A DNA stretch of 18,310 nt from Planctomycetota bacterium (GTDB taxonomy: Bacteria; Planctomycetota; Phycisphaerae; Sedimentisphaerales; Anaerohalosphaeraceae): NCBI GenBank assembly GCA_003644175.1, contig QNBS01000004.1, positions 1-18,310 of the forward strand. Reading direction: 5' to 3'. Below the pieces are notes generated by a model. The model saw only the letters and a list, made by a program, of their open reading frames with translations, searched no databases and was not told the origin of the DNA. Shown piece after piece: positions 504 through 14,177 of this stretch. The first letter of the stretch is position 1, and each line of letters begins with the position of its first letter. The position numbers were made by a program, and so were the translations under genes.

Positions 504-1064
504 TCAGTCTAACATTATCTCGTCGCTCTTGGCCTTGACGATACCGTCGATCTTGTCCGTGAATTTCCTGGTCAGGTTATCGATATCTTTCTTGCCCTTG
601 TCGCGGTCGTCTTCGGTGATAACCTTGTTTTTCTGCTCCTCGTCCAGCGCCTTGTTGGCGTCACGTCTGATATTGCGAACAGATACCTTGGTTTTTTCCC
701 CTAATTGCTTAACCTGCTGGGCGAGTTGATCGCGCCTTTCCCCGCTCAGCGGGGGGACGCTTAGCCTGACGACCTTGCCGTCGAGTATCGGGGCAAGGCT
801 CAGTTCGCTGTTTTTGATGGCCTTTTCAACTTCCTTCAGGGCGGCGGGGTCAAACGGCTTGATTATGATCATATCGGCATCAGGTGTCGCGATAGTCGCC
901 ATCTGCTTGAGTGGCGTGGGCGCGCCGTAATACTCCACGCTGAGGTTCTCCACTAATCCCGCCGAGGCCCTGCCGGTCCGCACCGAACGCAATTCGGCCT
1001 GCAGAAACTCCACCGCCTTTTCCATGCTGTTTTCATGCTCTGTAATGATTTTCTGTGTAGGCAT
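504..1064 (-). CDS. frr: Ribosome recycling factor
   Basis: 186 residues, the normal length for RRF. RRF binds the post-termination ribosome and, with EF-G, splits it into subunits so it can be reused. Recognisable family segments are RSVRTGRAS at 26-34 (domain I helix), PPLSGERR at 104-111 (hinge with domain II) and VRNIRRDAN at 129-137, followed by a long charged helix rich in DDRDKGKKDIDNLTRKFTDK. The start at 1064 is preceded on the minus strand by TTGGAG about 10 bases away. It lies 41 bp downstream of pyrH in the same direction, the usual pyrH-frr pairing, and very likely shares its transcript. The gap between them is a tandem duplication that copies the Shine-Dalgarno sequence. Confidence 0.97.
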   Translation of the reverse strand: MPTQKIITEHENSMEKAVEFLQAELRSVRTGRASAGLVENLSVEYYGAPTPLKQMATIATPDADMIIIKPFDPAALKEVEKAIKNSELSLAPILDGKVVRLSVPPLSGERRDQLAQQVKQLGEKTKVSVRNIRRDANKALDEEQKNKVITEDDRDKGKKDIDNLTRKFTDKIDGIVKAKSDEIMLD

Positions 1065-1068
1065 TCGT

Positions 1069-1108
1069 CAAACTCCAATTGACCCTTAACAAACTCCAAT
1101 TGACCTTA
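1069..1108 (-). repeat. Imperfect 21-bp tandem duplication with duplicated Shine-Dalgarno
   Basis: Plus-strand units CAAACTCCAATTGACCCTTA (1069-1088) and CAAACTCCAATTGACCTTA (1090-1108) are offset by 21 bp and differ by one base. On the minus strand each unit reads TAAGG(G)TCAATTGGAGTTTG, so it carries a TAA and a GGAG. The distal copy contains the pyrH stop codon; the proximal copy sits in front of frr and provides its ribosome-binding site. Confidence 0.85.
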
Positions 1109-1825
1109 TCGGGCGATCCGCGTGCCGACCTTCTCGCCGCGAATCGCTTTTTCGATACTGCCCGGTGTAAACATGTTTAAAACCACAATCGGGACATTGT
1201 TCTCGCTGCAAAGGCTGATCGCCGCCGGGTCTATGACCTTGAGGCCGCGGCGGAGAACATCCTTGTAGGAAATTTTTTCCATGAGCTGTGCTTCGGGATT
1301 TTTCAGCGGGTCGTCGGTATACACGCCGTCGACCTTGGTTGCTTTGATGAGAATATCGGCCTCCAGTTCAGCCGCCCGCAGCGCCGCACACGTGTCCGTG
1401 GAAAAGAAAGGATTGCCCGTTCCGCCGGCTAAGATGACGACCCTGCCGGATTCGAGATGCTTGACGCACCTTCTCTGTATGAACGCCTCACAAAGTGCGG
1501 GCACTTCGATGGCGCTCATGACCCGCGCCGGCCGATGCGCCCTCTCCAGCATTTCCTGAAGGGCGCAGGCATTGAGCACCGTCGCCAACATACCCATGTA
1601 ATCGGCAGTGTTGCGAGGGATCGGGTTTTGGGCCGAAAAGGTCTGTCCGCGCAGGAAATTGCCTCCTCCCACCACAACAGCCACCTGCGGTCCAAGCTCG
1701 CATACCCGGGCGATTCCGGCGGCGACCGCCTCGACCGCCTCAATATCGAGCCCGAACTCGCCGGGCCTGCAAAAACTCTCGCCCGACAGTTTAAGTAAAA
1801 TCCGTTTGTATTTAATATCAGCCAT
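1106..1825 (-). CDS. pyrH: UMP kinase
   Basis: 239 residues, normal for the bacterial UMP kinase of the amino-acid-kinase fold, which phosphorylates UMP to UDP with ATP in pyrimidine nucleotide synthesis. Visible motifs are KLSGESF at 12-18 (phosphate-binding Lys and loop), GGGNFLRG at 53-60, RNTADYMGMLAT at about 71-82, GGTGNPFFSTDT at 134-145 (UMP and base recognition) and KATKVDGVYTDDP at 161-173. The start is preceded on the minus strand by AAGG about 5 bases before ATG. It is the first gene of the leftward pyrH-frr unit and is divergent from rpsB-tsf. A minus-strand TATAAT lies about 55 bp upstream of the start. The product is certain from sequence. Confidence 0.97.
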   Translation of the reverse strand: MADIKYKRILLKLSGESFCRPGEFGLDIEAVEAVAAGIARVCELGPQVAVVVGGGNFLRGQTFSAQNPIPRNTADYMGMLATVLNACALQEMLERAHRPARVMSAIEVPALCEAFIQRRCVKHLESGRVVILAGGTGNPFFSTDTCAALRAAELEADILIKATKVDGVYTDDPLKNPEAQLMEKISYKDVLRRGLKVIDPAAISLCSENNVPIVVLNMFTPGSIEKAIRGEKVGTRIAR

Positions 1826-1880
1826 AATCCTTACAGCAACTCCCTAAAAAAGTCTCTGACAATTCGCGGCGCCGGCGGCT

Positions 1881-1886
1881 ATTATA
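1881..1886 (-). promoter_or_regulatory. Probable -10 element of the pyrH-frr promoter
   Basis: A perfect TATAAT on the minus strand (plus-strand ATTATA) lies 55 bp before the pyrH start, giving a leader of about 50 nt. No good -35 hexamer is present at 16-18 bp spacing, so the promoter is either weak at -35 or helped by an activator. Confidence 0.5.
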
Positions 1887-2204
1887 CACCCATCTCAACC
1901 GATTACCAGTCATATAAATTGCTATTTTCGGCTCACCCGGCGGCGTTTAGGCCGGGCCCGTGCAAGTCGCGCCGGCCCGCCGGGACTATCGGCGTCGCTC
2001 CGGGAAACAATGAAGCCGGCTGTAGTCTTGTGTCCTGTGTCTTCTGCATCTTCCCGGCGTGTCGCCGGTGGATGCATATCGGCCTGCGACCCCCTCTGCG
2101 GCGATTATTTTCCCTGTTTTCACGAAAAAACTCGCCCCATCACCGGTTTCGCACAAAAAACTCGCCAACAAAAATGCAAATTTCGCCGTATTTCGCAAAA
2201 AATC
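1887..2204. other. Divergent control region between pyrH and rpsB, with A-tracts
   Basis: I see no convincing gene in this 318-bp stretch; the open frames crossing it show no recognisable protein. The rpsB-proximal part carries A-tracts centred near 2127, 2157, 2172, 2180 and 2199. Two of these lie in a 12-bp direct repeat AAAAAACTCGCC (2125-2136 and 2155-2166) spaced 30 bp. The last tract (2197-2202) lies just upstream of the rpsB -35, where an UP element or bent DNA would act. Confidence 0.5.
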
Positions 2205-2233
2205 TTGACACACGCTCCATGTTGCAGTATTGT
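2205..2233 (+). promoter_or_regulatory. Sigma70-type promoter of rpsB-tsf
   Basis: TTGACA at 2205-2210, a 17-bp spacer, then TATTGT at 2228-2233. The -35 is a perfect match, the spacing is optimal and an A6 tract lies directly upstream. Transcription would begin near 2240, giving a leader of about 64 nt before the GTG start of rpsB. Confidence 0.8.
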
Positions 2234-2303
2234 GATCCAACTCTTCTATCAGTGGCGATAAAGGAAAACGAGACAGATACTTGTTGATTGGAGGCTGAAT
2301 TTT

Positions 2304-3260
2304 GTGAGTAAGGAACTGGCCCGCGAGCTTATAGGCGCCGGCGTACACTTTGGTCATGCGGCCAGTAGATGGAACCCGAAGATGAAACCGTACATTTTCG
2401 GCACCCGCGGCATGATCCATATCATTGACGTAAAAGAGACACTAAAGGGGCTTATCATTGCAAAAAAGCTCCTTGCCGATGTGGTTTCTTCGGGAAAAGA
2501 TGTTGTTTTTGTTGGGACCAAACGCCAGGCTCAAAAGGCCGTTGCCAACGCGGCGGAGAAATGCGGGATGCATTATGTTTGCGAGCGTTGGTTAGGGGGC
2601 ATGCTGACAAACTTCAGGACGATTCGGTCGAGACTTCAGCGACTGGAGGAGTTGGAGAAGCTTGCGGCCAGCGGCAAGATGGAAGCCGAAAGCAAGAAGC
2701 AGGCCTCGCGACTGAAACGGGAGATGCGCAAGATACTGACTAATCTTGGCGGCGTTCGGAAGATGAACCGTCTTCCCGGCGTTGTCGTTGTCGTGGATGT
2801 AAAAAAGGAACTCACCGCCCTTCGTGAAGCCAGGAAGCTGGGTCTGATGTGCGTGGGGATTATCGATACGGATTCGGATCCGGACAACGTGGATGTGGCG
2901 ATACCGGCAAACGACGATTCGATCAAGGCTGTCGATATACTGCTCAGCGAACTCGTTGAAGCGGTGGCCGCCGGTAAGATGATGGCGAGAACGGCGCCAA
3001 GGCCGGCAGGGGCGGTGAGAGGACGCTCAAGGAGAAGGGCGCTTGCAAGGGCGGTGGAGGAGACCGAACAAAAGGCCCCCGATCAGCCGGCTGAAACGGC
3101 TGCGGTCGATGCCGGAGGCGCAGCCGCAGCAGCAGTGAGCGAGGCTGCTCCGGCGAGCGATGAAGTCGTGCCTGTTGAAACGGAGACCGTTGCCGTGAAA
3201 AGCACCGATCCCGCCGACGCCGAAGGCAAGACGGCGCCTGCGGAGAATCAGAGCGAATAA
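2304..3260 (+). CDS. rpsB: Small ribosomal subunit protein S2 with long C-terminal extension
   Basis: 318 residues against about 230-260 for a usual S2. The core (1 to about 226) shows GVHFGHAASRWNPKMKPYIF, IIDVKET, the GGMLTNFRTIRSR segment at about 98-110, VVVVDVKKE and the DTDSDPDNVDVAIPANDDS segment at about 188-206, all typical of S2, a late-assembling 30S protein that contacts S1 in bacteria that have it. Residues 227-318 form a tail: a basic patch RGRSRRR (about 239-245), then an Ala/Glu/Pro-rich acidic low-complexity stretch. The GTG start is chosen because GGAGG lies 9 bases before it and the S2 family begins at this point. It is first in rpsB-tsf, with a strong promoter upstream. 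Confidence 0.97.
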   Translation: MSKELARELIGAGVHFGHAASRWNPKMKPYIFGTRGMIHIIDVKETLKGLIIAKKLLADVVSSGKDVVFVGTKRQAQKAVANAAEKCGMHYVCERWLGGMLTNFRTIRSRLQRLEELEKLAASGKMEAESKKQASRLKREMRKILTNLGGVRKMNRLPGVVVVVDVKKELTALREARKLGLMCVGIIDTDSDPDNVDVAIPANDDSIKAVDILLSELVEAVAAGKMMARTAPRPAGAVRGRSRRRALARAVEETEQKAPDQPAETAAVDAGGAAAAAVSEAAPASDEVVPVETETVAVKSTDPADAEGKTAPAENQSE

Positions 3261-3344
3261 GACAGTTGGTTTGTGTTGCCTTTTTAATTTAACTTGAGAG
3301 CAAGCGGCGCAGATGATATATGTTGGTGTTTGCTTTGGAGCCTG

Positions 3345-3374
3345 CGGCCTGTGAGTGGCCGGAGTGTTTTTTTT
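3345..3374 (+). terminator. Weak terminator or attenuator between rpsB and tsf
   Basis: CGGCC-TGTGAGT-GGCCG (3345-3361) forms a 5-bp GC stem, which could be lengthened by two pairs across a mismatch. A run of eight T follows at 3367-3374, starting five bases after the stem. The short stem and the gap before the T run suggest partial termination. Only 30 bp separate it from tsf and I see no separate tsf promoter, so it would lower tsf transcription relative to rpsB, as is known for the E. coli rpsB-tsf gap. Confidence 0.45.
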
Positions 3375-3404
3375 GTACGTTGGACATAACGGGAGCTTTA
3401 GATA

Positions 3405-4265
3405 ATGGCTGAGATTACGGCTGGGTTGGTAATGAAACTCCGCAAGATGAGCGGACAGGGGATGATGGACTGCAAGAAGGCGCTGCAGGAGACCGGAGGC
3501 GACATGGATGAGGCCATGGCGCTTTTGCGTAAGAAGGGCCTGGCGACGTTGGAGAAACGCGCCGGGCGCGCAACCAGCGAAGGGCGGGTCGTGTGCCGCA
3601 GGAGCGACGACGGCAAGGCCGCTGCGCTTGCGACGCTTTGCTGCGAGACGGATTTTGTCTCCAAGAACGACGACTTTGTGGCGACGGCCGATATATTAGC
3701 CCAGTGTACTCTGCTCGCCGACGCCGACGAAGGGGCCGGCGCCCTGATGGAGACCGTTTATGACGGCAGGAAATTCTCGGAGTACCTGACCGATGCGGTG
3801 AGCAAGACGGGCGAGAAGACCGAGGTTGGGGATTTTGTACGGTACAAACTCAACGGTTCCGGCGTGATCGGCAGCTATGTTCACTTTAATAACAAACTGG
3901 GCGTTATGGTGCAGATTGCCACTTCGGCCGACGAGGTTTCGTGCGCCCTGGCCCAGGTGGCTACGGATATCGCGATGCACATTACGGCGATCAATCCGGC
4001 CGGCGTCGATAGAGACTCGATCGATCCGGCGGTGATCGCCAGGGAACGGGCGATTGCCGCAGAGCAGGTAAAGAACAAACCCGCCAACATCATCGACAAG
4101 ATCATCGAGGGCAAATTGGGCAAGTTCTTCAAGGAAAACTGCCTTGTCGATCAGCCCTTTGTCAAAGACGACACAAAGACGGTCGGCCAGGCCCTGGCCG
4201 AAGCCGCCAAAGCCGCAGGCGGCCAGGCAAAGATAAAGCGATTCGTACGCATGGAAATCGGCTAA
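3405..4265 (+). CDS. tsf: Elongation factor Ts
   Basis: 286 residues, close to the usual size. EF-Ts is the nucleotide-exchange factor that regenerates EF-Tu-GTP in the cytoplasm. The N-terminal UBA-like domain is clear (VMKLRKMSGQGMMDCKKALQ, about 9-28, and GGDMDEAMALLRKKG, about 31-45). The signature CCETDFV lies at 79-85 and contacts the EF-Tu nucleotide site. HFNNKLGVMVQI and a VATDIAMHI segment belong to the core domain, and the C-terminal GKFFKENCLVDQPFVKD motif is present. GGGAG lies 9 bases before the ATG. It follows rpsB by 144 bp and probably shares its transcript through a leaky terminator. Confidence 0.97.
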   Translation: MAEITAGLVMKLRKMSGQGMMDCKKALQETGGDMDEAMALLRKKGLATLEKRAGRATSEGRVVCRRSDDGKAAALATLCCETDFVSKNDDFVATADILAQCTLLADADEGAGALMETVYDGRKFSEYLTDAVSKTGEKTEVGDFVRYKLNGSGVIGSYVHFNNKLGVMVQIATSADEVSCALAQVATDIAMHITAINPAGVDRDSIDPAVIARERAIAAEQVKNKPANIIDKIIEGKLGKFFKENCLVDQPFVKDDTKTVGQALAEAAKAAGGQAKIKRFVRMEIG

Positions 4266-4456
4266 GACCCGATCCCAATAACCTCTCGTCGACCCGAGGC
4301 CTCTTTTGCCACAACCAGCCACCTCCAACCACCCCGGCACGCCGGGATAAACTCCTGTCACACGGATTGCGCAGATTTTTTTAGCCGCAAAAAAGCCTGT
4401 CCTGAGGGGAGACAAGGGGCATAGAGAGCCCATTTGATGTTGAGGAACGGCCGGAT
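4266..4456. other. Gene-free stretch after tsf
   Basis: No gene is visible. A weak hairpin TCTCG-TCGACC-CGAGG (4284-4299, outer pair T-G) is followed by a short TTTT at 4304-4307 and may terminate tsf. A second palindrome, CCCGG-CACG-CCGGG (4333-4346), has no T tract. T7-AGCCGC-A6 at 4376-4394 is a simple AT stem-loop. Read on the minus strand, the A6 becomes a T tract after an imperfect GTC-rich stem at about 4395-4421, but no minus-strand gene ends here. Confidence 0.35.
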
Positions 4457-4484
4457 TTGACTTGGGCGGATTCTGTGTTATATT
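4457..4484 (+). promoter_or_regulatory. Sigma70-type promoter of the small RNA gene
   Basis: TTGACT at 4457-4462, a 16-bp spacer, then TATATT at 4479-4484. Both hexamers match five of six consensus bases. Transcription would begin near 4490-4492, just before the first of two strong hairpins, and no protein start with a ribosome-binding site follows within the structured part. Confidence 0.7.
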
Positions 4485-4490
4485 TTATGG

Positions 4491-4587
4491 TTGGTTACGG
4501 GAACCTTGTCCGGGACCCAAAACGGTCCGGCAAGGATAATTACTTTTTGGCGTGTCATACCGTTCCCATATGGCACGCCTCTTTTTC
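4491..4587 (+). ncRNA. Candidate small RNA of about 97 nt with two hairpins and a possible pseudoknot
   Basis: Hairpin 1: arms 4504-4517 and 4524-4535 make 12 pairs with single-base bulges at 4509 and 4514 and a CAAAAC loop. A linker ending in T5 follows (4536-4548). Hairpin 2: GGCGTGTCATA (4549-4559) pairs with TATGGCACGCC (4569-4579), 11 pairs with one T-G, around a nine-base loop CCGTTCCCA. T5 comes at 4582-4586, so hairpin 2 is a textbook intrinsic terminator. GGGAAC at 4499-4504 is exactly complementary to GTTCCC (4562-4567) in the hairpin 2 loop, which would allow a 6-bp pseudoknot sharing one base with hairpin 1. It lacks the conserved parts of SRP RNA, 6S RNA, tmRNA or RNase P RNA. 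It could instead be an attenuated leader of the gene at 4836, but 250 bp separate them. Function unknown. Confidence 0.65.
4549..4586 (+). terminator. Intrinsic terminator of the small RNA
   Basis: An 11-bp stem (GGCGTGTCATA with TATGGCACGCC, one T-G pair) closes a nine-base loop and is followed after TC by five T. The opposite strand has no T tract after the stem, so the direction is plus, in agreement with the promoter at 4457-4484. Confidence 0.8.
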
Positions 4588-4835
4588 CTCTCTCCTGCCC
4601 TACTCCACTTCAGGGGAGCAGTATGTCAGCCCCTCCAAATCCATCTCTTCGGCCTGCTATTTTATTTTTCGGCTTAAATCCTGAAAACCCTGTTTTTTCT
4701 GTAACGTTAACCATATAATCGCGTCTGTAGTATAGCAAGCGGCCTTTTTTCGCATCTTGATGGATCAGTTTTCGGGGGGAAGGTCAGTTAAAGTGAGTAT
4801 TTGTTTTTTTCCTCCAGGATAAAGGTGTACTGTAA
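4588..4835 (+). other. Gap between small RNA and exported-protein gene
   Basis: I see no gene. A perfect TATAAT at 4714-4719 could be the -10 of a promoter for the gene at 4836, but the hexamer 17 bp upstream (TGTTTT, 4691-4696) is a poor -35. A stem CTG...CTCC/GGAG...CAG lies around 4597-4623 without a T run. T-rich runs occur near 4744-4751 and 4803-4811. Confidence 0.3.
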
Positions 4836-6269
4836 ATGAAAAAAGTTGTCATTACCCTCATCATTGGCATCGTAATCGGTATTTCGCTGACAACATTATC
4901 ATCTGTTCTGCGTAACCCGAAACAACCTCGCAATGCTCCCACTCGTACTGTCCAGGAAACCGTACACCCCAAGCCGGAAACCGTACACGCCAAGACGCCG
5001 GCCGAATTAGAAAATCTCCCGAAAGGCGCTATCGTCTTTGACCTCAGCTACGCCGGATTGACAGATGGTCGATACGGTTCATATTGGGGATTTGGCCGGT
5101 CACGCAATAATAACGATTCGTCGTTTATCAAGGAGGTGCGAAAAAAGGCCGGCGAGATTCAGGTTATCGAAAACCGCTATTTCCCCGAAGCCAGGCTCTC
5201 TGCAGTTGAGATGCTGGATAATAAGGCCCAGGCCTTATATTTTGATCTGGATCAAAATGGAAAATTGTCGGACAACGAAAAGATCCTCCCGCTAACACCA
5301 AAACCCGAAGATAATTCTTCGACGGTGGATTTTATGACTCCTGATTTTGACCTTAAGACCCAGGAAGGACGCACTGTGCGTTTCAGAACCCTTGCAAGGG
5401 TGAGCCATCGCGGATCAGACGGGAATGTCAACATCGACGTTATGTGGTCTCCGGCCTGCATTCTTCAGGGTTCCGCCTCGATAGATGGCGAGCCTGCGAG
5501 GCTGACACTTTTTACCAACGGCTTTAACGGGCGTTTTGACCGGTTTGGCCGCGGTCGATACAGCCTTGTAAAGGAAAAGGATTATGAACTTGAAATGGCC
5601 TTACGCTCCCGACAGACCTTGAGCAGTCTCATTAACTATAACGGACGGTTTTATCGCCTGAAAATCCTCGGCAGCAATGAAAAAGGTAAGGTCGTTAAGG
5701 CCGCTTTAGTAGAGGACACTTCGCCAAGAGGGACAGTCGCCCTGAATATCGAGGGGGACAATACCCTCAAGACAAAACTGGAAAGAGCGACGATTAACGG
5801 CAAGAGCGACAAGACGATCTATTTCAATATATCCGGCGGACAGACCGAATTGCCCGAAGGCGACTACGTACTCAGCCGAGGACAATTTAAGTATAGAGTC
5901 GGAAAGGCGCGCGGATGGAAGGTGGATTTTTCCAGGGGACCGGAATTTGTTATTACGCCCGACAAGGAAACTGTTATTACCATGGGCAAACCGGCCATGA
6001 GTATCCGCGCCGTTGATAACAATAAGCGGTATAACTCTGACGTAAAGCCGCAGAAAAGTTTCACAAAGGGTGCACGGATCTATATCGAGCCCACAATCAA
6101 GGGGATGGCAGGTGAGGTTTACGGAAGGTTTACCGAATGGAAGCAAAGGACGAACAAGAAGACGGGCGAATTGGAGGACAAGTGGAGATGGTCCGACAGC
6201 GCCCCGCATATCGTGATCGTGGATCCGGGCGGAAAAGAGTTTGTTTCCAAGAAGATGGAATATGGGTGA
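4836..6269 (+). CDS. Exported protein of unknown function, ending at an in-frame TGA
   Basis: 477 residues. Residues 4-24 are hydrophobic after MKK, so it is a signal anchor or signal peptide without a clear cleavage site. A Pro/Thr linker with a tandem ETVHPKP/ETVHAK repeat follows (about 40-52). DLDQNGKLSDNE at 137-148 fits the 12-residue calcium loop of EF-hand and dockerin repeats. The rest is rich in predicted beta strand and aromatic-charged repeats, with a final HIVIVDPGGKEFVSKKMEYG segment like the start of an Ig-type strand pair. AAAGGTG precedes the ATG by about 9 bases. I do not recognise a named family; the style resembles large exported proteins of Planctomycetota. The frame stays open for 45 more codons after the TGA (see 6270-6407), so this may be a truncated or recoded protein of 523 residues. 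Confidence 0.8.
   Translation: MKKVVITLIIGIVIGISLTTLSSVLRNPKQPRNAPTRTVQETVHPKPETVHAKTPAELENLPKGAIVFDLSYAGLTDGRYGSYWGFGRSRNNNDSSFIKEVRKKAGEIQVIENRYFPEARLSAVEMLDNKAQALYFDLDQNGKLSDNEKILPLTPKPEDNSSTVDFMTPDFDLKTQEGRTVRFRTLARVSHRGSDGNVNIDVMWSPACILQGSASIDGEPARLTLFTNGFNGRFDRFGRGRYSLVKEKDYELEMALRSRQTLSSLINYNGRFYRLKILGSNEKGKVVKAALVEDTSPRGTVALNIEGDNTLKTKLERATINGKSDKTIYFNISGGQTELPEGDYVLSRGQFKYRVGKARGWKVDFSRGPEFVITPDKETVITMGKPAMSIRAVDNNKRYNSDVKPQKSFTKGARIYIEPTIKGMAGEVYGRFTEWKQRTNKKTGELEDKWRWSDSAPHIVIVDPGGKEFVSKKMEYG
4956..4997 (+). repeat. 21-bp tandem duplication inside the exported-protein gene
   Basis: Two adjacent 21-bp units (4956-4976 and 4977-4997) start GAAACCGTACAC and differ at two bases. They encode ETVHPKP and ETVHAKT in the linker after the membrane segment, so the duplication keeps the frame and only lengthens the linker. 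Confidence 0.8.
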
Positions 6270-6490: not shown

Positions 6491-7459
6491 ATGGTTAGAA
6501 ATGTTTGGGTTATAGTTGCGGTTGCGGCGGTGGTTGTTGCTGTTTTTGGGGGGGTGGCGGCTTATTGGGAGATTACTTCGGCTGCGGCCGGCGGGGAGTT
6601 GGTTATCTTTCATGCCGGGAGTCTTTCTGTCCCGTTTGGGGAGGTGTCGGCTGAATTCGAGAAGATGTATCCGGATATTACAATCAAGGCCGAGGCCGCT
6701 GGTAGTCGGATGTGTGCGCGTAAGATTAGCGAACTTGGACGTGCGTGCGATGTTATGGGTTCGGCGGATTATAAGGTTGTCGGCAACCTGCTGATGGGCG
6801 AACATGTCGACTTTAATATTCGCTTTGCGCTTAATGAGATGGCTATCGCCTATACGGACGGGTCCAGGTGCAGTGTCGACATAACGGCGGAGAACTGGTA
6901 CGATATATTGGCCGGAGACGACGTCGCGTTCGGGCGGAGCGATCCGGATATGGACCCGTGCGGGTATCGAACATTGATGGTGTTTCAGTTGGCCGAGAAG
7001 CACTACGAGATACCCGGTCTTGCCGCCAGGCTTCGGGCTAAGGACAGGCACATTCGTCCCAAGGAGACCGACTTGCTGGCGTTGCTGGAGGCCGGCGAGA
7101 TTGACTATCTTTTCATATACCGGTCGGTGGCGGTCCAGCATGGGCTGAAAACGGTCCTGCTGCCGGATGAGATCAATTTGAAATCGCAGGCGCATGCGGC
7201 GCTGTATAATACGGCCGTGGTGGAAGTGTCGGGCAGGAGGCCGGGCGAGCCGATTACGCGCAGGGGCGAGCCGATGGTGTATTCGGTGACGATTCCGATG
7301 AATGCTCCGAATCGCCGGGCGGCCGAGGCGTGGGTGGCGCTGCTGCTGTCGGAGAAGGGACGGGAGATTATGGAAACCAACGGCCAGCGGTGTATGAGGC
7401 CCGCTGAAGTTGACGGGGCGGACAGATTGCCGGATTCGCTCAAGGAGTTTTTTGAATAA
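6491..7459 (+). CDS. wtpA: Tungstate/molybdate-binding protein of an ABC importer (WtpA type)
   Basis: 322 residues. Residues 5-25 form a hydrophobic signal or anchor without a lipobox Cys, so the protein acts outside the membrane by capturing tungstate or molybdate. The mature part has the WtpA/ModA-like oxyanion pattern: FHAGSLSVPF at 40-49, AAGSRM at 69-74, RKISELG at about 77-83, DVMGSADYKV at about 87-96, DPCGYR at 155-160 and YRSVAVQHGL at 210-219. DPCGYR and YRSVA-type motifs mark the WtpA group rather than E. coli ModA. WtpA relatives bind the metal with six ligands; I cannot assign the two extra acidic ligands with certainty. The ribosome-binding site is weak. wtpB starts 3 bp after its stop and wtpC overlaps wtpB, so this is one operon. 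Tungstate is the likelier substrate given aor nearby. Confidence 0.92.
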   Translation: MVRNVWVIVAVAAVVVAVFGGVAAYWEITSAAAGGELVIFHAGSLSVPFGEVSAEFEKMYPDITIKAEAAGSRMCARKISELGRACDVMGSADYKVVGNLLMGEHVDFNIRFALNEMAIAYTDGSRCSVDITAENWYDILAGDDVAFGRSDPDMDPCGYRTLMVFQLAEKHYEIPGLAARLRAKDRHIRPKETDLLALLEAGEIDYLFIYRSVAVQHGLKTVLLPDEINLKSQAHAALYNTAVVEVSGRRPGEPITRRGEPMVYSVTIPMNAPNRRAAEAWVALLLSEKGREIMETNGQRCMRPAEVDGADRLPDSLKEFFE

Positions 7460-7461
7460 AC

Positions 7462-8247
7462 ATGGCAAATCAACGGCAAATTGGATGGTTTAACCTGGTT
7501 TTGGCCCTGCTTGGGTCATGCGTGATTCTGTTTGTCGTGGCTCCGTTGGTCGGTATTGTGCTGGCGACGCCGGCTTCGGATCTGAAAGCGGCGTCGGTTG
7601 ACCGCGAGGTGCTCGAGAGTATCAGGCTGACGCTGGCGGCGGCCTTGTTTGCGACGGTAACGTCTGCGCTGGTGGGTGTTCCGTTTGCGTATTTGCTTGC
7701 CCGGAAGGATTTTTGGGGTCGGTCGATTGTTCTTGCCGTGATCGATCTGCCGATCATTATTCCGCATTCGGCGGCGGGGATCGCGTTGCTTACGGTTATC
7801 GGGAGGCAGTCATTAATCGGCAGGCTGTTCGGCAGGCCGCTGACGGGCACGACGGCGGGAATTGCGGTTGCTATGGCGTTTGTGTCCATACCGTTTTTGA
7901 TAAACGCCGCCCGCGAGGCATTCGGCAGTGTGGATACAAAGCTGGAGAAAGCGGCCCGTACCCTTGGCGCGGCGCCGTGGCGGGTCTTCTTTACGATATC
8001 ACTGCCGCTTGCCCGGCGTGGGATACTGTCGGGCCTGGTCCTTATGTGGGCAAGGGGCATCAGCGAATTCGGCGCGGTTGTTATTGTGGCTTATCATCCG
8101 ATGACGACTCCGGTGATGATATTTCAGCGTTTTAACGACTACGGACTCGGCGCGGCAACGTCGGTCGCCGTTTTGCTGATACTCATTTGCGTTGCGATAT
8201 TTATCATGCTGCGGGTTTTTCTTCGGCCCAAAGCAGAGGAGTTTTAA
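7462..8247 (+). CDS. wtpB: Tungstate/molybdate ABC transporter permease
   Basis: 261 residues, normal for ModB/WtpB-type permeases. About six hydrophobic segments are visible (around 10-34, 53-80, 88-112, 128-147, 186-210 and 232-252). The EAA loop that docks on the ATPase is at about 162-182: EKAARTLGAAPWRVFFTISLP, with the conserved Gly. The SALVGVPFAYLLAR and LPIIIPHSAAGIALL segments are typical of the family. The ATG lies two bases after the wtpA stop. The stop TAA overlaps the ATG of the ATPase gene by one base (TAATG), so translation is coupled. It forms the inner-membrane channel for the oxyanion delivered by WtpA. Confidence 0.94.
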   Translation: MANQRQIGWFNLVLALLGSCVILFVVAPLVGIVLATPASDLKAASVDREVLESIRLTLAAALFATVTSALVGVPFAYLLARKDFWGRSIVLAVIDLPIIIPHSAAGIALLTVIGRQSLIGRLFGRPLTGTTAGIAVAMAFVSIPFLINAAREAFGSVDTKLEKAARTLGAAPWRVFFTISLPLARRGILSGLVLMWARGISEFGAVVIVAYHPMTTPVMIFQRFNDYGLGAATSVAVLLILICVAIFIMLRVFLRPKAEEF

Positions 8248-9284
8248 TGCTCGAACTGCAATCCATCGGCAAACGGTTCGGGGCGTTTGAACTGAAAGAT
8301 GTCTCGCTGACGATCAATGACGGCGAATACTTTGTGCTGTTAGGCCCGTCCGGGGTGGGCAAGACGGTGCTGATGGAGATTATCGCCGGTCTGATACGGC
8401 CGGATAAGGGGCGGATACTGTGGGACGGGGAAGATATAACGTCAAGGCCTCCGGAGGCAAGGGGGTTTTCGGTTGTTTATCAGGATTATGCGTTGTTTGG
8501 GCATTTGACGGTTAGGCGGAATGTCGCGTACGGGCCGGCGGCGGCGGGAGCGAGCGCCGAGAAGATACGCCGGCAGGTGGCGGGATTAGCCGAGATACTG
8601 CGTATCGAAGAGATTCTGGATCGCTACCCAAAGAGCCTGTCGGGCGGGGAGCAGCAGCGGGTTGCACTGGCGCGGGCGTTGGCGGTCGGGCCGCAGTTGC
8701 TGCTGCTGGATGAGCCGTTGAGCGCTGTCGATGTGAATACGAGGCTGCGGCTGCGGAAGGAGCTTAAGCGAATCAATACCGAGTTGAATGTGCCGGTGCT
8801 GCATATAACTCACGATCCGCAGGAGGCGATAACATTGGGGGATCGAATCTGCGTTATGCTGGACAGCCGGATTCGCCAGGTGGGGACGGCGGCGGAGTTG
8901 TTTCACGAGCCCTGCGAGCCCGATGTGGCCAGGTTCCTTGGGATGCGAAATATACTGCCGGTGAACAGGGTGAAGGGGGGCGTGTGTTTTATAGACGACC
9001 GGCAGATAGAGGCCGGCGCCGCCGACGAAACGACCACTCACATCTGGATCAGGCCGGAGGAGATACTTATCTCGACAGAGGCGTTCGAGAGCAGTGCGAG
9101 GAATCAGTTCAGGTGCCTGGTGGCGGAAATCGAGCATCATGGCTCGCTGCCGGCGGTGCAGGTTGTCTCCGGGGCGATGAGCCTTACGGCGCTGATTACA
9201 TATCGCTCTTTCAAGGAATTGCAGATCGCCGTCGGCGCGGAGGTCTATATTACCTTCAAGAGTTCGTCTGTTCATTGCCTTTGA
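8247..9284 (+). CDS. wtpC: Tungstate/molybdate ABC transporter ATPase
   Basis: 345 residues from the ATG overlapping the wtpB stop. I prefer this start to in-frame ATGs farther up because GAGGAG lies 6 bases before it and the protein then begins MLELQSIGKRFG like its relatives. Motifs: Walker A GPSGVGKT at 33-40, Q-loop VVYQDYALF at about 76-84, signature LSGGEQQR at 131-138, Walker B LLLLDEP at 151-157, switch His at about 189 in ITHDPQEA. Residues after about 235 form a C-terminal regulatory part with a probable TOBE fold (IWIRPEEILIS, then CLVAEIEHHG), which in ModC-type proteins can bind oxyanion. It powers import by WtpAB. In sequence alone it could also be called modC or tupC; the WtpA partner favours wtpC. 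Confidence 0.93.
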   Translation: MLELQSIGKRFGAFELKDVSLTINDGEYFVLLGPSGVGKTVLMEIIAGLIRPDKGRILWDGEDITSRPPEARGFSVVYQDYALFGHLTVRRNVAYGPAAAGASAEKIRRQVAGLAEILRIEEILDRYPKSLSGGEQQRVALARALAVGPQLLLLDEPLSAVDVNTRLRLRKELKRINTELNVPVLHITHDPQEAITLGDRICVMLDSRIRQVGTAAELFHEPCEPDVARFLGMRNILPVNRVKGGVCFIDDRQIEAGAADETTTHIWIRPEEILISTEAFESSARNQFRCLVAEIEHHGSLPAVQVVSGAMSLTALITYRSFKELQIAVGAEVYITFKSSSVHCL

Positions 9285-9374
9285 CCGGAGAGGGGGGGCA
9301 GGAGCCATCCGGTGGTGAAAGTGAATATTCGTGATAGTTCAACGTACTATTAGATGATATTAGGGAGAATTGGA

Positions 9375-10703
9375 ATGGATCAATACTCATCCGGCAGGAA
9401 GTTCAATCTGAGTGGTTGGTATATTGTGCTGCTTTTGCTGATTTGCGTTGTCGGCCTGTTCGCGGCGTTTATCGTTACCGGCAAAAACAACCTCAAAAAG
9501 GAGATCGCCGCTATCCGCGCCGCAGGCTATCCGACAAACTATGAGGAACTGGACAAATACTACTCCATCCCCGAAGGCGTCCCCAACGCCGCCGATCTCT
9601 ACACCAAAGCGTTCGAGGCATATCAAAAGCCAAGCGGGGAGTTAGCCGATCACCTGCCCATGCGCGGTTCAGAGTACAGGGAGGAACCGCGAAGCCCACT
9701 CAACTCTAACAACGTCGAAGCCATAATCTTTGACTTGCAGGCCAACAAAGAGACCCTCGAATTGCTCGGCAAGGCCGCCGCCATCAAACACTGCAGATAC
9801 GACCTTGACTTTAGTCAGGGGGGAATATTGTATATCCCCAATTTGACTGAGATGAAGGGGTGTGCACAGTTACTGGCCGAACAGACGATGCTTCTTGCAC
9901 ACCAGGACGATGGGGACGCCGCCGTCAAGAACATCGCAAGACAACTGGCGCTGGCCGAGTCGCTCAAAAAAGAGCCCATACTGATATCGCAACTGGTGCG
10001 TATGGCATTAGTCGCGATCAGCTACTCGTCGGTGGAATACATACTGAACCAAACTACCTTGAACGATGAACAGTTGGCCGGCCTGCAGCAGCAATTGAGC
10101 CAAGCCTATCAAGATAACCCCATGGTAATGGGACTTATCGGTGAACGCTGCTTTATCATCAGCTATATCGGCGATCCACAACAATTGGGGATGCCCGCGA
10201 CCCCCGGCGGACTTCTGCGAATTACAGGGATTGCAGACAGAAATGCCATGGTGTCCCTGAAACTGATTGGGCAATACGCAGATGCGATGAAACTGCCTGG
10301 CCGGCAGCGGCTTTTACGATGTCGCGAAATTACCGCCGAGGTGGACGATTTGTCCATCTTTTATTCGCTTACAAAGATAATGATGCCCGCATTCGAAGGG
10401 GTCATCCAGATAGACATGCGAGTCGCCGCTGAGGTAGACTGTACCAGAGTTGCCCTGGGGATTGAGCGATATCGCCTGGCAAAGGGTTCTCTGCCGAAGG
10501 AGCTGACTGACCTGGCGCCGCAATACATCGACAAGGCGCCCATCGACCCATTCGACGGCAAACCCCTGCGGTATAAACTGACCGAGCCGGGCTATATTGT
10601 CTATAGCATCGGCGAAGATGGCGCCGACGAGGGCGGGCTGGAGAAAGATAAAGTAGCCCAAAGAGGCGATCCGCACGACTGGCCCATCATTGTGGAACAT
10701 TAG
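9375..10703 (+). CDS. Membrane-anchored protein of unknown function with pseudopilin-like tail
   Basis: 442 residues from the ATG at 9375. I chose this over the ATG at 9354 because AGGGAG lies 7 bases before it. One membrane segment at about 14-35 follows a short basic N-terminus. Next come a GYPTNYEELDKYY-like stretch and a long, mostly helical middle. The tail (about 389-442) reads PIDPFDGKPLRYK...YSIGEDGADEGG. This resembles the C-terminus of type II secretion major pseudopilins (PxDPWGxPxxY...SxGxDG), but there is no N-terminal pilin cleavage motif. Proteins of this style are frequent in Planctomycetota, as far as I know without assigned function. It follows wtpC by 90 bp with its own ribosome-binding site and no clear terminator between, so cotranscription is possible. 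It ends convergent to moeA. Confidence 0.8.
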   Translation: MDQYSSGRKFNLSGWYIVLLLLICVVGLFAAFIVTGKNNLKKEIAAIRAAGYPTNYEELDKYYSIPEGVPNAADLYTKAFEAYQKPSGELADHLPMRGSEYREEPRSPLNSNNVEAIIFDLQANKETLELLGKAAAIKHCRYDLDFSQGGILYIPNLTEMKGCAQLLAEQTMLLAHQDDGDAAVKNIARQLALAESLKKEPILISQLVRMALVAISYSSVEYILNQTTLNDEQLAGLQQQLSQAYQDNPMVMGLIGERCFIISYIGDPQQLGMPATPGGLLRITGIADRNAMVSLKLIGQYADAMKLPGRQRLLRCREITAEVDDLSIFYSLTKIMMPAFEGVIQIDMRVAAEVDCTRVALGIERYRLAKGSLPKELTDLAPQYIDKAPIDPFDGKPLRYKLTEPGYIVYSIGEDGADEGGLEKDKVAQRGDPHDWPIIVEH

Positions 10704-10740
10704 CGAGCGGGACAGCGGGCGTGAAACAGCATCGAGGGTG

Positions 10741-11913
10741 TCAGATCAGGGTAACCTCCACATCGCTGCCGGCATTGAGTTTTCCGACGCCGGCGGGAAT
10801 CTGTACGATACCGTTGGCGTGGGTGTAGGCGTGGATGTGTGCTGAGCCGTGATAGGCGAAGAAATTGACGGCGCCGTCCGCTTCGAGTTTCACCGGTCGA
10901 AATTCCGAGCGGTCGGCCTTGCGTTTTATGACATCCTTTGCCAGTCGCCCGCGTATGCGGGCGGGCCGGTAGTCTGCGCCCATGAGTTTCACCAGAAACG
11001 GCCTTACCAGGACCTCGAACAAGACAAATGTCGAGACCGGATTGCCGGGCAGGCCGAAAAAGTACTTGTTGCCTTTTGTTCCGAAGACGGTCGGTCTTCC
11101 CGGCTTGATTTTGACCTTTGCGAATTTGATATCAATGCCGTTGTCGCTTAGTATCTGGGGCACGAAGTCATAGTCGCCGACGGACACCCCGCCGCTGAAG
11201 ATTACGACATCGCATTGTTCAATCGCTGCGGCGAGGATCACGTCGATCGCCTCGGGTGTGTCTTTTGCAATGCCGAAGTATTTTGGTATGCAGCCGGCTC
11301 TTTGAATCTGGGCGCACAGTTGATAGCTGTTTGAGTTGCGGATCTTCGCAGCCGTTGGTTTCTGTCGCGGCTCGATGAGTTCGTCGCCGGTTGCAACCAC
11401 GCCGACACGCGGCATGGCGTAAACAGTCGCCGGATCGCAACCCACCGAGGCCAGGACGGCGATCTCGACGGGCCGAAGCACCGTGCCTGCGGCGAGAACC
11501 ATATCGCCGGCGCGAGCGTCTTCTGCCTTGCGGCGGATATTCGTTCGCCCGGACTTCTTTACTACATATACGAGCCCGTCTCTGGCCTCGGTATGCTCGA
11601 ACATTACGACGATGTCGGCGCCTTTGGGAACGACGGCGCCTGTCATGATCCGGCTGCACCGGCCGCCGGCGACAGCTTTTTGGGGCATATATCCTGCTGG
11701 TATTGTCTCGATCTCGGTCAGGCCTGCGTCGAGATCGGCCTGTCGGCAGGCAAAACCGTCCATCGCCGAGAGATCATGCGGGGGCATGTCCATATCCGAG
11801 GCGACATCGGCGGCGAGGACGCGGCCCAGACAGTCGCCCAGCGCGATGTCTTCGGCGGCCGTTTGGCCGGTGTTTTCGAGCACTATTCGAAAGGCCTCGT
11901 CAAAAGATATCAT
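10741..11913 (-). CDS. moeA: Molybdopterin molybdenumtransferase (metal insertion into the pterin cofactor)
   Basis: 390 residues from the ATG at 11911-11913. A longer frame begins at 11970, but AGGGA lies close upstream of the shorter start and MISFDEAF matches the family's N-terminus. MoeA inserts molybdate, or here probably tungstate, into adenylylated molybdopterin. Motifs: PPHDLSAMDGFA at 44-55, RIMTGAVVPKGAD at about 88-100, VATGDEL at 173-179, FSGGVSVGDYD at 239-249, KPGRP at 270-274 and GLPGNPVS at 287-294. It is divergent from aor and shares a 195-bp control region with it, which fits a role in making the AOR cofactor. No mog or moaB is seen in the window. Its promoter and an overlapping inverted repeat are listed separately. 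Confidence 0.95.
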   Translation of the reverse strand: MISFDEAFRIVLENTGQTAAEDIALGDCLGRVLAADVASDMDMPPHDLSAMDGFACRQADLDAGLTEIETIPAGYMPQKAVAGGRCSRIMTGAVVPKGADIVVMFEHTEARDGLVYVVKKSGRTNIRRKAEDARAGDMVLAAGTVLRPVEIAVLASVGCDPATVYAMPRVGVVATGDELIEPRQKPTAAKIRNSNSYQLCAQIQRAGCIPKYFGIAKDTPEAIDVILAAAIEQCDVVIFSGGVSVGDYDFVPQILSDNGIDIKFAKVKIKPGRPTVFGTKGNKYFFGLPGNPVSTFVLFEVLVRPFLVKLMGADYRPARIRGRLAKDVIKRKADRSEFRPVKLEADGAVNFFAYHGSAHIHAYTHANGIVQIPAGVGKLNAGSDVEVTLI

Positions 11914-11961
11914 GTGTTTTCCCTGTAAAGTGCGGTTTTCGGCTAAATCGCCCAATGGGCC

Positions 11962-11989
11962 ATTATCCATGCCAAACGCCCGGTGTCAA
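11962..11989 (-). promoter_or_regulatory. Sigma70-type promoter of moeA
   Basis: On the minus strand TTGACA (plus 11984-11989), a 16-bp spacer and GATAAT (plus 11962-11967). The -35 is perfect and the -10 matches five of six. The start of transcription would be near 11955, about 42 nt before the moeA ATG. Confidence 0.7.
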
Positions 11990-11995
11990 GGCGTT
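11975..11995. promoter_or_regulatory. Inverted repeat over the moeA -35 element (possible operator)
   Basis: AACGCC (11975-11980) and GGCGTT (11990-11995) form a perfect 6-bp inverted repeat with a 9-bp centre. The moeA -35 hexamer lies inside that centre. A dimeric repressor bound here would block moeA. The sequence does not match the ModE-type palindrome as I know it, so the regulator is unknown. Confidence 0.4.
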
Positions 11996-12042
11996 AAGTA
12001 GCCGATCTCCGTCGGGATTTTCAAATGCAGCGGTATATTGCC

Positions 12043-12063
12043 TTGACAGACGCCTGCGATAAT
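12043..12063 (+). promoter_or_regulatory. Possible aor promoter elements
   Basis: TTGACA at 12043-12048 is a perfect -35, and GATAAT lies at 12058-12063, but the spacing is only 9 bp. The hexamer at proper 17-bp spacing, CAGACT at 12066-12071, matches three of six bases. Either the promoter is weak and activator dependent, or TTGACA and GATAAT belong to different promoters. Confidence 0.35.
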
Positions 12064-12108
12064 GGCAGACTTTAGGCGGCTTGTAATGAATTATAAGGAG
12101 ATAAAGTC

Positions 12109-13905
12109 ATGGCTGGGTACTGTCAAAAGATTTTGAGAATCAATCTCTCCACCGGCTCCGTCAATACCGAATCACTCGACCTGACAACGGCAAAAAAGTT
12201 CATCGGTGGGCGTGGGCTGGGGACGTATATTTTTTCAGAGGAGGTGGATGCCGGGATCGATCCGTTTAGCGCCGACAATAAGATCATCTTCGCAGCAGGT
12301 CCGCTTACCGGTACATCGGCGCCGACCGGAGGAAGATATATGGTGGTCACGAAGTCGCCGCTTTCGGGCACTATCGCCAGTTCCAACTCGGGCGGTTTCT
12401 GGGGGGCCGAACTCAAGCACGCCGGCTACGACCTCATTATTGTCGAAGGAAAGTCGCCCAGGCCCTGTTACATACTCATCAACGACAGCGACGTGCAGGT
12501 CAAAGACGCCGAAAAATACCGGGGCAAGCTGGTATCCGAAACGACCGACGGGCTCATTGAAGAGACACAGCTTGCCAAGGCGCGGATTTTGACGATCGGG
12601 CCGGCCGGCGAGAAGGGGGCGCTTCTTGCCTCGATCATGAACGAAAAGTACCGCGCCGCCGGACGTTCGGGTGTGGGTGCGGTGATGGGCAGCAAGAATC
12701 TCAAGGCGATCGTGGTGCGCGGCACAGGCAAGTGCCGGCCCGCCGATAAGGAAAAAACCAAAGAGGCGATCAAGGCTGTCCGCGATAAGATCAAGCAGAA
12801 CGACGTTACGGCCAAGGGCCTGCCGACCTACGGCACGGCGGTTCTTGTCAACGTCATTAACGAACACGGCATGTATCCGACCAGGAACTTCCAGGAGGGC
12901 GTCTTTGCGACAGCCGACCAGGTCAGTGGGGAATCGTTGGCGGAGAAGCGATTGGTGCGCAACGTCGCCTGTTACGCCTGTCCGATAGCCTGCGGGAGGC
13001 GTTCGGTCGTCGATGGCGTCGAGGGCGAAGGTCCGGAGTACGAGACGTTGTGGGCTTACAGCGCCGACTGCGGCGTTGACGATCTCGATTCGGTTATCAG
13101 GGCCAACAACTTCTGCAACGAATACGGAATCGATACGATTTCGGCAGGCGCGACGATTGCCTGTGCGATGGAACTTTACGCCAAAGGCCTGATAAAAGAC
13201 GACGAACTCGACGGGCCGCCTTTGAATTTCGGGTCTGGCGTTGCAATCGTCGAGTGGTCCAGGAAGATGGGCGCACTGGAAGGGTTCGGCGAAAAGCTTG
13301 CACAGGGTTCCTACCGATTAGCCAAAAGTTACGGCGCGGCGGAACTTTCGATGTCCGTCAAGAAACTGGAAATGCCGGCTTATGACCCGCGCGGCGTGCA
13401 GGGACATGCCCTGAACTACGCCACTTCAAACCGCGGCGGCTGCCATGTACGGGGCTATATGATTTCGCCTGAGATCTTAGGCCTCCCCGAAAAGCTGGAC
13501 CGATTCGCAACCGAGGGCAAGGCGACATGGGTAAAGGCCTTCCAGGATTTGACGGCGGTTATCGACTCGCTGGGGCTGTGCCTCTTTACGTCCTTTGCAA
13601 TAGGCGCCGACGAATACCGCGCCATGTATAACGCAATCACAGGCGAAGAACTCACGACCGAACAACTGCTCGAAGCGGGCGACAGGATATACAATCTCGA
13701 ACGGCAGTTCAACCTCGCCGCCGGCATCAGCCCGGATCAGGATACGCTGCCGAAACGAGTTCTGGATGAGCCGATTTCGGAAGGTCCGTCCAAGGGCCAT
13801 GTCGCCGAATTAGGCAAGCTGCTGCCGGAGTATTACAAGGAACGCGGCTGGGACGAAGGCGGGATTCCCACGCAGGAGAAACTCGCCGAATTGGGCATTG
13901 GCTGA
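12109..13905 (+). CDS. aor: Tungsten-containing aldehyde:ferredoxin oxidoreductase
   Basis: 598 residues, close to the 605 of Pyrococcus furiosus AOR. The enzyme oxidises aldehydes to acids, or runs in reverse, in the cytoplasm using a tungsten bis-pterin and one 4Fe-4S cluster, with ferredoxin as partner. Cluster ligands are visible as CYACPIAC at 288-295 (Cys288, 291, 295) and Cys491 in DSLGLC (486-491), matching the known 288/291/295/494 spacing. The N-terminal beta domain has FIGGRGLGTYIF and AAGPLTGTSAPTGGRY; GRSGVGAVMGSKNLKAI at about 185-201 belongs to the pterin site. His446 in GGCHVRGY and Glu310/Glu312 in EGPEYETLW correspond to the proposed active-site His and Glu. There is no signal peptide. 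AGGAG lies 8 bases before the ATG. The moaD-like gene follows by 50 bp. The aldehyde cannot be predicted. Confidence 0.96.
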   Translation: MAGYCQKILRINLSTGSVNTESLDLTTAKKFIGGRGLGTYIFSEEVDAGIDPFSADNKIIFAAGPLTGTSAPTGGRYMVVTKSPLSGTIASSNSGGFWGAELKHAGYDLIIVEGKSPRPCYILINDSDVQVKDAEKYRGKLVSETTDGLIEETQLAKARILTIGPAGEKGALLASIMNEKYRAAGRSGVGAVMGSKNLKAIVVRGTGKCRPADKEKTKEAIKAVRDKIKQNDVTAKGLPTYGTAVLVNVINEHGMYPTRNFQEGVFATADQVSGESLAEKRLVRNVACYACPIACGRRSVVDGVEGEGPEYETLWAYSADCGVDDLDSVIRANNFCNEYGIDTISAGATIACAMELYAKGLIKDDELDGPPLNFGSGVAIVEWSRKMGALEGFGEKLAQGSYRLAKSYGAAELSMSVKKLEMPAYDPRGVQGHALNYATSNRGGCHVRGYMISPEILGLPEKLDRFATEGKATWVKAFQDLTAVIDSLGLCLFTSFAIGADEYRAMYNAITGEELTTEQLLEAGDRIYNLERQFNLAAGISPDQDTLPKRVLDEPISEGPSKGHVAELGKLLPEYYKERGWDEGGIPTQEKLAELGIG

Positions 13906-13955
13906 GTTGAAGGGTAGAGTCGTATGCCAAACCGCAATTTTGCAAGAGTTTTGTT

Positions 13956-14177
13956 ATGATCGAGGTCAGACTGTTTGCGACATTCAGGGACAACCGCTTC
14001 AAGGAAAGGCGGATGGATTTTCCCGAAGACGGGCTGCTCGAAGACCTTTTGGGGCAACTCGATATCGGCGCCGATGAAGCAGGGATTCTGCTGGTCAACG
14101 GCGACAGCGCAACGCCGGAGACGAAACTTCATGCAGGTGATGTTGTCTCCATATTCCCGGCGATTGGCGGGGGCTGA
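13956..14177 (+). CDS. MoaD/ThiS-type sulfur carrier protein
   Basis: 73 residues with a ubiquitin-like pattern: MIEVRLFATFRD as first strand, a helix around 26-35, ILLVNGDSA as middle strand, HAGDVVSIFPAIGGG as the end. The C-terminal Gly-Gly is the thiocarboxylate site of sulfur carriers, and the HAGDVVSIFPAIGG ending is typical of MoaD (L-x-DGD-x-V-x-x-PPVAGG-like). It probably supplies the dithiolene sulfur of the pterin cofactor. It starts 50 bp after aor in the same direction, with a weak AAGAG site, and no promoter lies between. MoaD-like genes beside aor are a known arrangement. No MoaE or E1-like (MoeB) partner is in the window. A ThiS-like role is less likely given the neighbours. 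Confidence 0.85.
   Translation: MIEVRLFATFRDNRFKERRMDFPEDGLLEDLLGQLDIGADEAGILLVNGDSATPETKLHAGDVVSIFPAIGGG

Follow-up and report, generated by a model that had tools for sequence, protein, structure and literature searches.

A probable, previously uncatalogued small-RNA gene downstream of tsf in a planctomycete genus

Introduction

Does the interval downstream of tsf in this planctomycete hold a free-standing small-RNA (sRNA) gene, and what would such an RNA do? The question was raised by an original prediction made from the letters of the DNA. We addressed it in the window, by which we mean the whole stretch of 18,310 nucleotides analysed here (contig C4 of G000, a 2.5-Mb draft genome that is 77% complete), and in other genomes.

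Results

Parts of the candidate sRNA unit

The candidate unit lies between tsf, which ends at 4265, and a 477-aa open reading frame (ORF) that starts at 4836 on the same strand. Its parts are collected in Table 1. The promoter of the original prediction, TTGACT-N16-TATATT, was found in place and recurs at the two homologous loci described below. Also confirmed were the 12-bp hairpin with two bulges and a CAAAAC loop (hairpin 1), the T-rich linker and the 11-bp terminator stem. In the window, the arms of hairpin 1 read CCTTG[T]CCG[G]GACC and GGTCCGGCAAGG. The predicted RNA fold of positions 4485-4590 reached -37.1 kcal/mol, against -27.5 +/- 3.2 in shuffles (z -2.98), and 1 of 200 shuffled sequences folded as well. 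The promoter match is weak on its own, since four promoter-like sites (two of them with this -35 element) were counted at 3500-5500 of the window when 1.7 +/- 1.3 were expected. The terminator of the unit is absent from the list given by our terminator scan because its 9-nt loop exceeds the limit of 8 set for loops in that scan. A terminator-like site at 4284-4299, downstream of tsf, suggests that tsf transcription may end ahead of the sRNA unit.

Table 1. Features of the candidate sRNA unit, in coordinates of the window.
Feature	Coordinates	Strand	Basis or remark
-35 element TTGACT	4457..4462	+	read directly; same sequence in C510 and C317
-10 element TATATT	4479..4484	+	spacer 16 nt; TG ahead at 4476-4477
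Predicted RNA, ~96 nt	4491..4586	+	5' end deduced from the position of the -10 element, 3' end from that of the T tract
Proposed pseudoknot, 5' half GGGAAC	4499..4504	+	partner GTTCCC 4562-4567; not conserved
Hairpin 1, 12 bp, loop CAAAAC 4518-4523	4504..4535	+	folding and three-sequence alignment
Single-base bulges of hairpin 1	T at 4509; one G of 4512-4514	+	read directly
Conserved linker ATAATTACTTTTT	4536..4548	+	predicted single-stranded; proposed pairing region
Intrinsic terminator, 11-bp stem 4549-4559 / 4569-4579, 9-nt loop, tail TCTTTTT	4549..4586	+	

Homologous loci and their neighbourhoods

The unit stands above chance because all its parts recur together at two further loci. When 156 bases were compared by BLAST with 98 genomes, the window's own included, matches were obtained in two: G000 itself and G001 (planctomycete MAG AUK267), an 89% complete draft and the only other genome of the genus compared. 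G001 carries two homologues, hereafter C510 and C317, and the comparative evidence consists of three sequences (the window, C510 and C317) from two draft MAGs. C510 is 83% identical over 144 bases (E 3e-35). The C317 match is in two pieces split by an insert (E 2e-13 and 1.5e-8). Ungapped identities were 112/136 for the window and C510, 104/134 for the window and C317, and 103/135 for C510 and C317.

C510 lies 1.8 kb from tsf, on the same side of rpsB-tsf as in the window, with an extra 489-aa ORF in between, and its RNA is followed by a heparinase-like ORF; tsf is thus common to the window and C510 loci, at different distances from the RNA. The C317 RNA is flanked by an Rrf2 fragment and an incomplete unknown ORF, with no evident same-strand gene downstream until dapB, ~1.4 kb on. 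The DNA similarity of the C317 contig (4.2 kb) to the other two loci is confined to the RNA unit; in the window it covers 4449-4590, starting 8 bases ahead of the -35 element and reaching the T tract. This contig has no ORF in common with the other two loci but the frame across the RNA itself. This confinement, together with the lack of any shared gene, speaks for a free-standing unit and against a leader. Contamination is an unlikely source of C317, since the dapB on it, the single one of G001, matches a 128-residue piece of dapB in G000 with 91% identity. The stretch shared by G000 and C317 (dapB to a glycine-zipper ORF) stops at 2384, ~0.8 kb from the C317 RNA, and the gene order around both G001 copies departs from that of the sister genome within ~1-2 kb.

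At all 28 loci examined in other family genomes, out of 35 other genomes where tsf was matched, pyrH comes after tsf in the same orientation. In the window (504-4265) and in G001, rpsB-tsf is divergent from pyrH-frr, and the RNA consequently stands downstream of tsf where the relatives examined have pyrH. This arrangement suggests a genus-specific rearrangement of the usually stable rpsB-tsf/pyrH-frr cluster, common to both species. Further on, the window holds at 6491-14177 a solute-binding protein (PF13531) and an aldehyde ferredoxin oxidoreductase (PF01314, PF02730), both matched in Pfam, along with ORFs which from the appearance of their sequences we take to be permease-, ATPase-, MoeA- and MoaD-like; this is probably a tungsten or molybdenum set. 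The ORFs at 4836-6269 (477 aa) and 9354-10703 (449 aa) gave no Pfam match at E<=0.01.

These neighbourhoods bear on whether the RNA could act in cis as the leader of the gene downstream, as a riboswitch or an attenuator. Promoter, structured RNA and terminator do stand in this order upstream of the same-strand ORF at 4836, as such a leader would require. However, the downstream genes differ between loci (in the window the 477-aa ORF, which has no Pfam match; at C510 the heparinase-like ORF; at C317 the distant dapB), no Rfam family matches, and the alternative pairing GGGAAC/GUUCCC is not conserved. Neither the constant class of downstream gene nor the conserved alternative pairing of a riboswitch or attenuator was therefore found, and cis regulation is unlikely because no neighbour gene is common to the three loci. 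We consider a leader very unlikely. A ligand-binding RNA, which had been proposed as one option, is unlikely in the form of a leader. What all three loci do present, as predicted from their sequences, is the arrangement of a trans-acting sRNA: a promoter and a terminator of its own, and no constant neighbour gene. The prediction of an independent transcription unit of about 97 nt thus appears sound, with a length now put at ~96 nt and the parts kept in three loci, one of which (C317) shares no gene with the others.

Conservation of sequence and structure

Common to the three loci are the -35 element, the spacer, the -10 element, the two bulges, the linker and the terminator. The -10 element reads TATATT in the window and C510 and TATAAT in C317, always at a spacing of 16 nt. 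Each of the three sequences can adopt hairpin 1 with its full set of 12 pairs and the two bulges; 9 of the 12 pairs are invariant and the changes are one-sided, to G-U only. The bulge bases are T/C/C and G/G/A, and the loop is free to vary, with 1 of 6 positions invariant. Ten of the 13 linker positions are invariant, and the stretch AUAAUnACUnUU is common to the window, C510 and C317. The linker is predicted to be unpaired with a probability of at least 0.93 in the window and of 0.50-0.97 in C510; in C317 its 3' half is predicted to be mostly paired. Of the 11 pairs of the terminator stem, 7 are invariant and three, close to the loop, differ on both sides; a single mismatch was seen among the three sequences, in C317.

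The stems that were expected to be conserved are therefore kept in relatives, but the six-base complement GGGAAC/GTTCCC is not; changes on both sides of a pair were found in three terminator pairs, whereas those of hairpin 1 are one-sided and GGGAAC/GTTCCC has no compensatory change. Column shuffles reached the observed covariation score in 76 of 500 cases, which is not significant with three rows. Sliding the 3' partners reduced the paired cells from 98.6% to at most 45%, for a structure itself derived from one row.

Measured in 30-base steps, the window and C510 have an identity of 0.67-0.97 within the unit, compared with 0.53-0.77 upstream at 4266-4445 and with 0.17-0.30 at 4581-4640. The upstream flank at 4371-4445 is fairly similar too (0.73-0.77), and the identity of the unit (82%) is no higher than that at fourfold sites of four neighbouring genes (tsf, pyrH, frr, rpsB; 391/463, 84%), so that this pair alone is no proof of constraint. 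The case rests mainly on C317, where promoter, bulges, linker and terminator are all present without any shared flanking sequence.

C317 is predicted to fold best (-46.0 kcal/mol) into another structure, which pairs half of the linker; with the shared pairs enforced, C317 reaches -40.2; the bare shared structure of C317 is at -26.0, 20 kcal/mol above the best fold. An insert of 31 nt that includes the G-rich sequence GGGGAGAAAGGGG lengthens the hairpin 1 loop of the C317 copy (3207-3351). In the predicted best fold of this copy, part of the insert pairs with the terminator tail.

Could the unit be a decaying or neutral repeat, a hairpin-terminator piece copied within the genus, for instance as a passive mobile fragment? 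The copies are few and restricted to the genus, the gene order around both G001 copies differs from the sister genome as described above, and the identity of the orthologues (window and C510) equals the fourfold-site level, all of which a neutral repeat would explain. On the other hand, C317 lacks flanking similarity yet keeps the -35 and -10 elements, their spacing, the bulges, the linker and the terminator, and the three terminator pairs changed on both sides argue against neutral drift. We therefore judge a neutral repeat unlikely.

A small protein gene is extremely improbable. The original prediction had placed no gene in the stretch; two 75-aa frames, at 4457-4684 and 4491-4718, do overlap it and are both open in the window, but neither is conserved. 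The 4457 frame aligns weakly with a C317 frame (30 aa, 43%, E 7e-4), as expected from the shared RNA. In C510 a stop codon interrupts the same frame, the relatives differ by frame-shifting indels of 1, 2 and 31 nt, and the terminator falls inside the 75-aa frames. Stop and indels together are what a non-coding sequence would be expected to show.

The proposed pseudoknot

GGGAAC, ahead of hairpin 1, is indeed the exact complement of GTTCCC in the loop of the second hairpin, which had led to the suggestion of a pseudoknot or of a switch between folds. In the window the two segments can be joined by six Watson-Crick pairs (P 0.03 when both segments are shuffled); a one-base slide gives 5 bp in C510 (P 0.11), and C317 has three (P 0.93). 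In the aligned register, 70.6% of the cells pair, none with a compensatory change; this pair count was matched by 500 of 500 shuffles, and slid versions pair less (23.5-68.8%). The C of GGGAAC doubles as the first base of hairpin 1, so that the sixth pair would compete with the stem. In the minimum-energy fold of the window, GGGAA pairs with the T-rich tail, a rival partner to GTTCCC. With 6, 5 and 3 bp across the loci and no covariation, we rejected the pseudoknot as a conserved feature.

Distribution of the unit

Over the whole window, Rfam 15 gave no match at gathering scores, in agreement with the earlier statement that the family was not recognised. Three sub-threshold matches were obtained in 4400-4840 (E 0.088 to 6.4). 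The best (E 0.088) scored 18.9 bits of the 50 needed, on the opposite strand. The best on the same strand was TarB (RF02538), a Vibrio sRNA that shares ACUUUUUGGCG ahead of a GC terminator. At 13.7 bits (E 6.4) it stays below the gathering score of 80, and membership was rejected, the similarity being a chance match of linker and terminator.

A covariance model (R1) was built from the window, C510 and C317. Its E-values on these three loci (1e-30, 3e-31 and 6e-25) restate the BLAST result only, as the model was built from them. With R1, in genome sets that overlap and of which those above 40 genomes were searched with stricter filters that lose weak matches, 4 of 39 family genomes matched at E<=1 (the two of the genus and two weak matches, which were rejected), 2 of 161 order genomes at E<=0.1 (none outside the genus), 1 of 397 class genomes at E<=0.1 and 1 of 392 phylum genomes at E<=0.01, in both cases the window's own. 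Each of the two weak family matches had an E-value of 0.7-0.8 per genome; one (G008) fitted the -10 region and the terminator without hairpin 1, and the other (G015) had broken stems in the alignment. The 28 tsf loci of other family genomes gave no match at E<=10.

A 19-base linker pattern occurred in four stretches of genome contigs, two of which are the G001 loci. The other two, in Anaerofustis stercorihominis and, ahead of a tRNA-like sequence, in Proteobacteria bacterium SP340, were seen by eye to be without the hairpin and were set aside as chance matches. Three stretches with this pattern in viral contigs lie, by eye, within unrelated coding frames and were likewise discarded; the hairpin pattern gave none in viral contigs. 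Plasmids and phages gave no match at E 1e-5, and in the planctomycete and Phycisphaerae small-RNA literature no title describing this RNA was present among the matches listed. As far as the searched genomes show, the unit thus appears confined to one planctomycete genus, with two copies in one species.

Pairing partners, Hfq and CsrA

The complement of a linker 11-mer (AGTRATTATCC) occurs at six places in G000 and G001, three of which are the RNA genes themselves. The other three are all in G001, two inside coding frames and one near a start codon (C593); this last site is without counterpart in G000, and away from the RNA genes the 11-mer complement is absent from G000. Pairing with the 14 gene starts of the window revealed nothing convincing, with a lowest P of 0.035 among 28 tests. 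Hfq was found in none of five genomes (G000 and G001, which are incomplete drafts, and three others listed as 99% complete), the same search being positive in 5 of 14 control genomes. The encoded Hfq that goes with an Hfq-dependent sRNA was thus not detected. With its own promoter and intrinsic terminator, the unit resembles the intergenic trans-acting base-pairing sRNAs in general; it differs from them in that no Hfq was found (five genomes), in the short T tract of the three RNAs (4-6 T) and in having no Rfam family.

We keep as a tentative possibility a protein-binding sRNA, in which the two-bulge hairpin, with GGA on both sides of its base, would bind or sequester a protein such as CsrA. 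The invariant pairs and kept bulges of hairpin 1 would suit such a role, but the terminator stem is about as constant, so that little can be read from the invariance of hairpin 1. The stretch CAAGGAUAAU, invariant in all three RNAs, resembles the CsrA SELEX consensus RUACARGGAUGU as it is given in PMC7652899, and each RNA has 3-4 GGA. These GGA counts are, however, near chance (P 0.06, 0.11 and 0.28), and the GG of CAAGGA is stem-paired in the window and C510 (predicted unpaired probability 0.00-0.01); GGA pairing weakens CsrA binding, according to the same paper (PMC7652899). In C317 the predicted values for the two G are 0.01 and 0.69, the second being mostly unpaired. CsrA was found in four of five genomes, the window's own (C144:3903-4055 of G000) and three other family members, but not in G001, the 89% complete draft with two RNA copies. 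The several exposed GGA of a sponge of the CsrB/RsmZ/McaS type were not found in the predicted folds. The base-pairing sRNAs McaS and GadY, which bind CsrA, are described there as having at least two GGA (PMC7652899). The present RNA is like them in keeping two GGA near the base of hairpin 1 and in its CAAGGAU core; it is unlike them in that the GG of the invariant site is stem-paired in two of the three RNAs and the GGA number is near chance. The doubly bulged stem is a candidate protein contact.

Discussion

We consider it very probable that an expressed sRNA gene is present in the stretch. Judged from sequence comparison, it is probably a previously uncatalogued small-RNA gene of an ordinary kind. 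As to how it works, we lean, without strong confidence, towards a free-standing, genus-specific gene for an RNA of ~96 nt that acts in trans by base pairing through its linker. Transcription would run from the sigma-70-type promoter to the intrinsic terminator and yield the ~96-nt RNA. Flanked by the bulged hairpin on one side and the terminator stem on the other, the linker AUAAUnACUnUU would be the part that pairs with target mRNAs, hairpin 1 may stabilise the RNA or bind a protein, and pairing in trans would work without Hfq.

A more far-reaching version, which we find doubtful, is a new multi-copy regulatory-RNA family of one genus that arose with or after the move of pyrH-frr away from tsf. 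Its members would be free of Hfq, an unknown protein would recognise the two-bulge hairpin, the 13-nt linker would pair with mRNAs, and the copies, which differ by inserts in the hairpin loop, may divide the targets among them.

An sRNA gene of the kind favoured here overturns nothing known. Most phyla have contributed few small RNAs to the catalogues: table 1 of PMC9029176, part of an Rfam survey, gives 8 distinct annotated sRNAs in Planctomycetes-Verrucomicrobia-Chlamydiae versus 345 in Proteobacteria. With its comparative support, this free-standing candidate sRNA gene offers a concrete starting point for studying RNA-based regulation in bacteria of a lineage in which Hfq was not detected.
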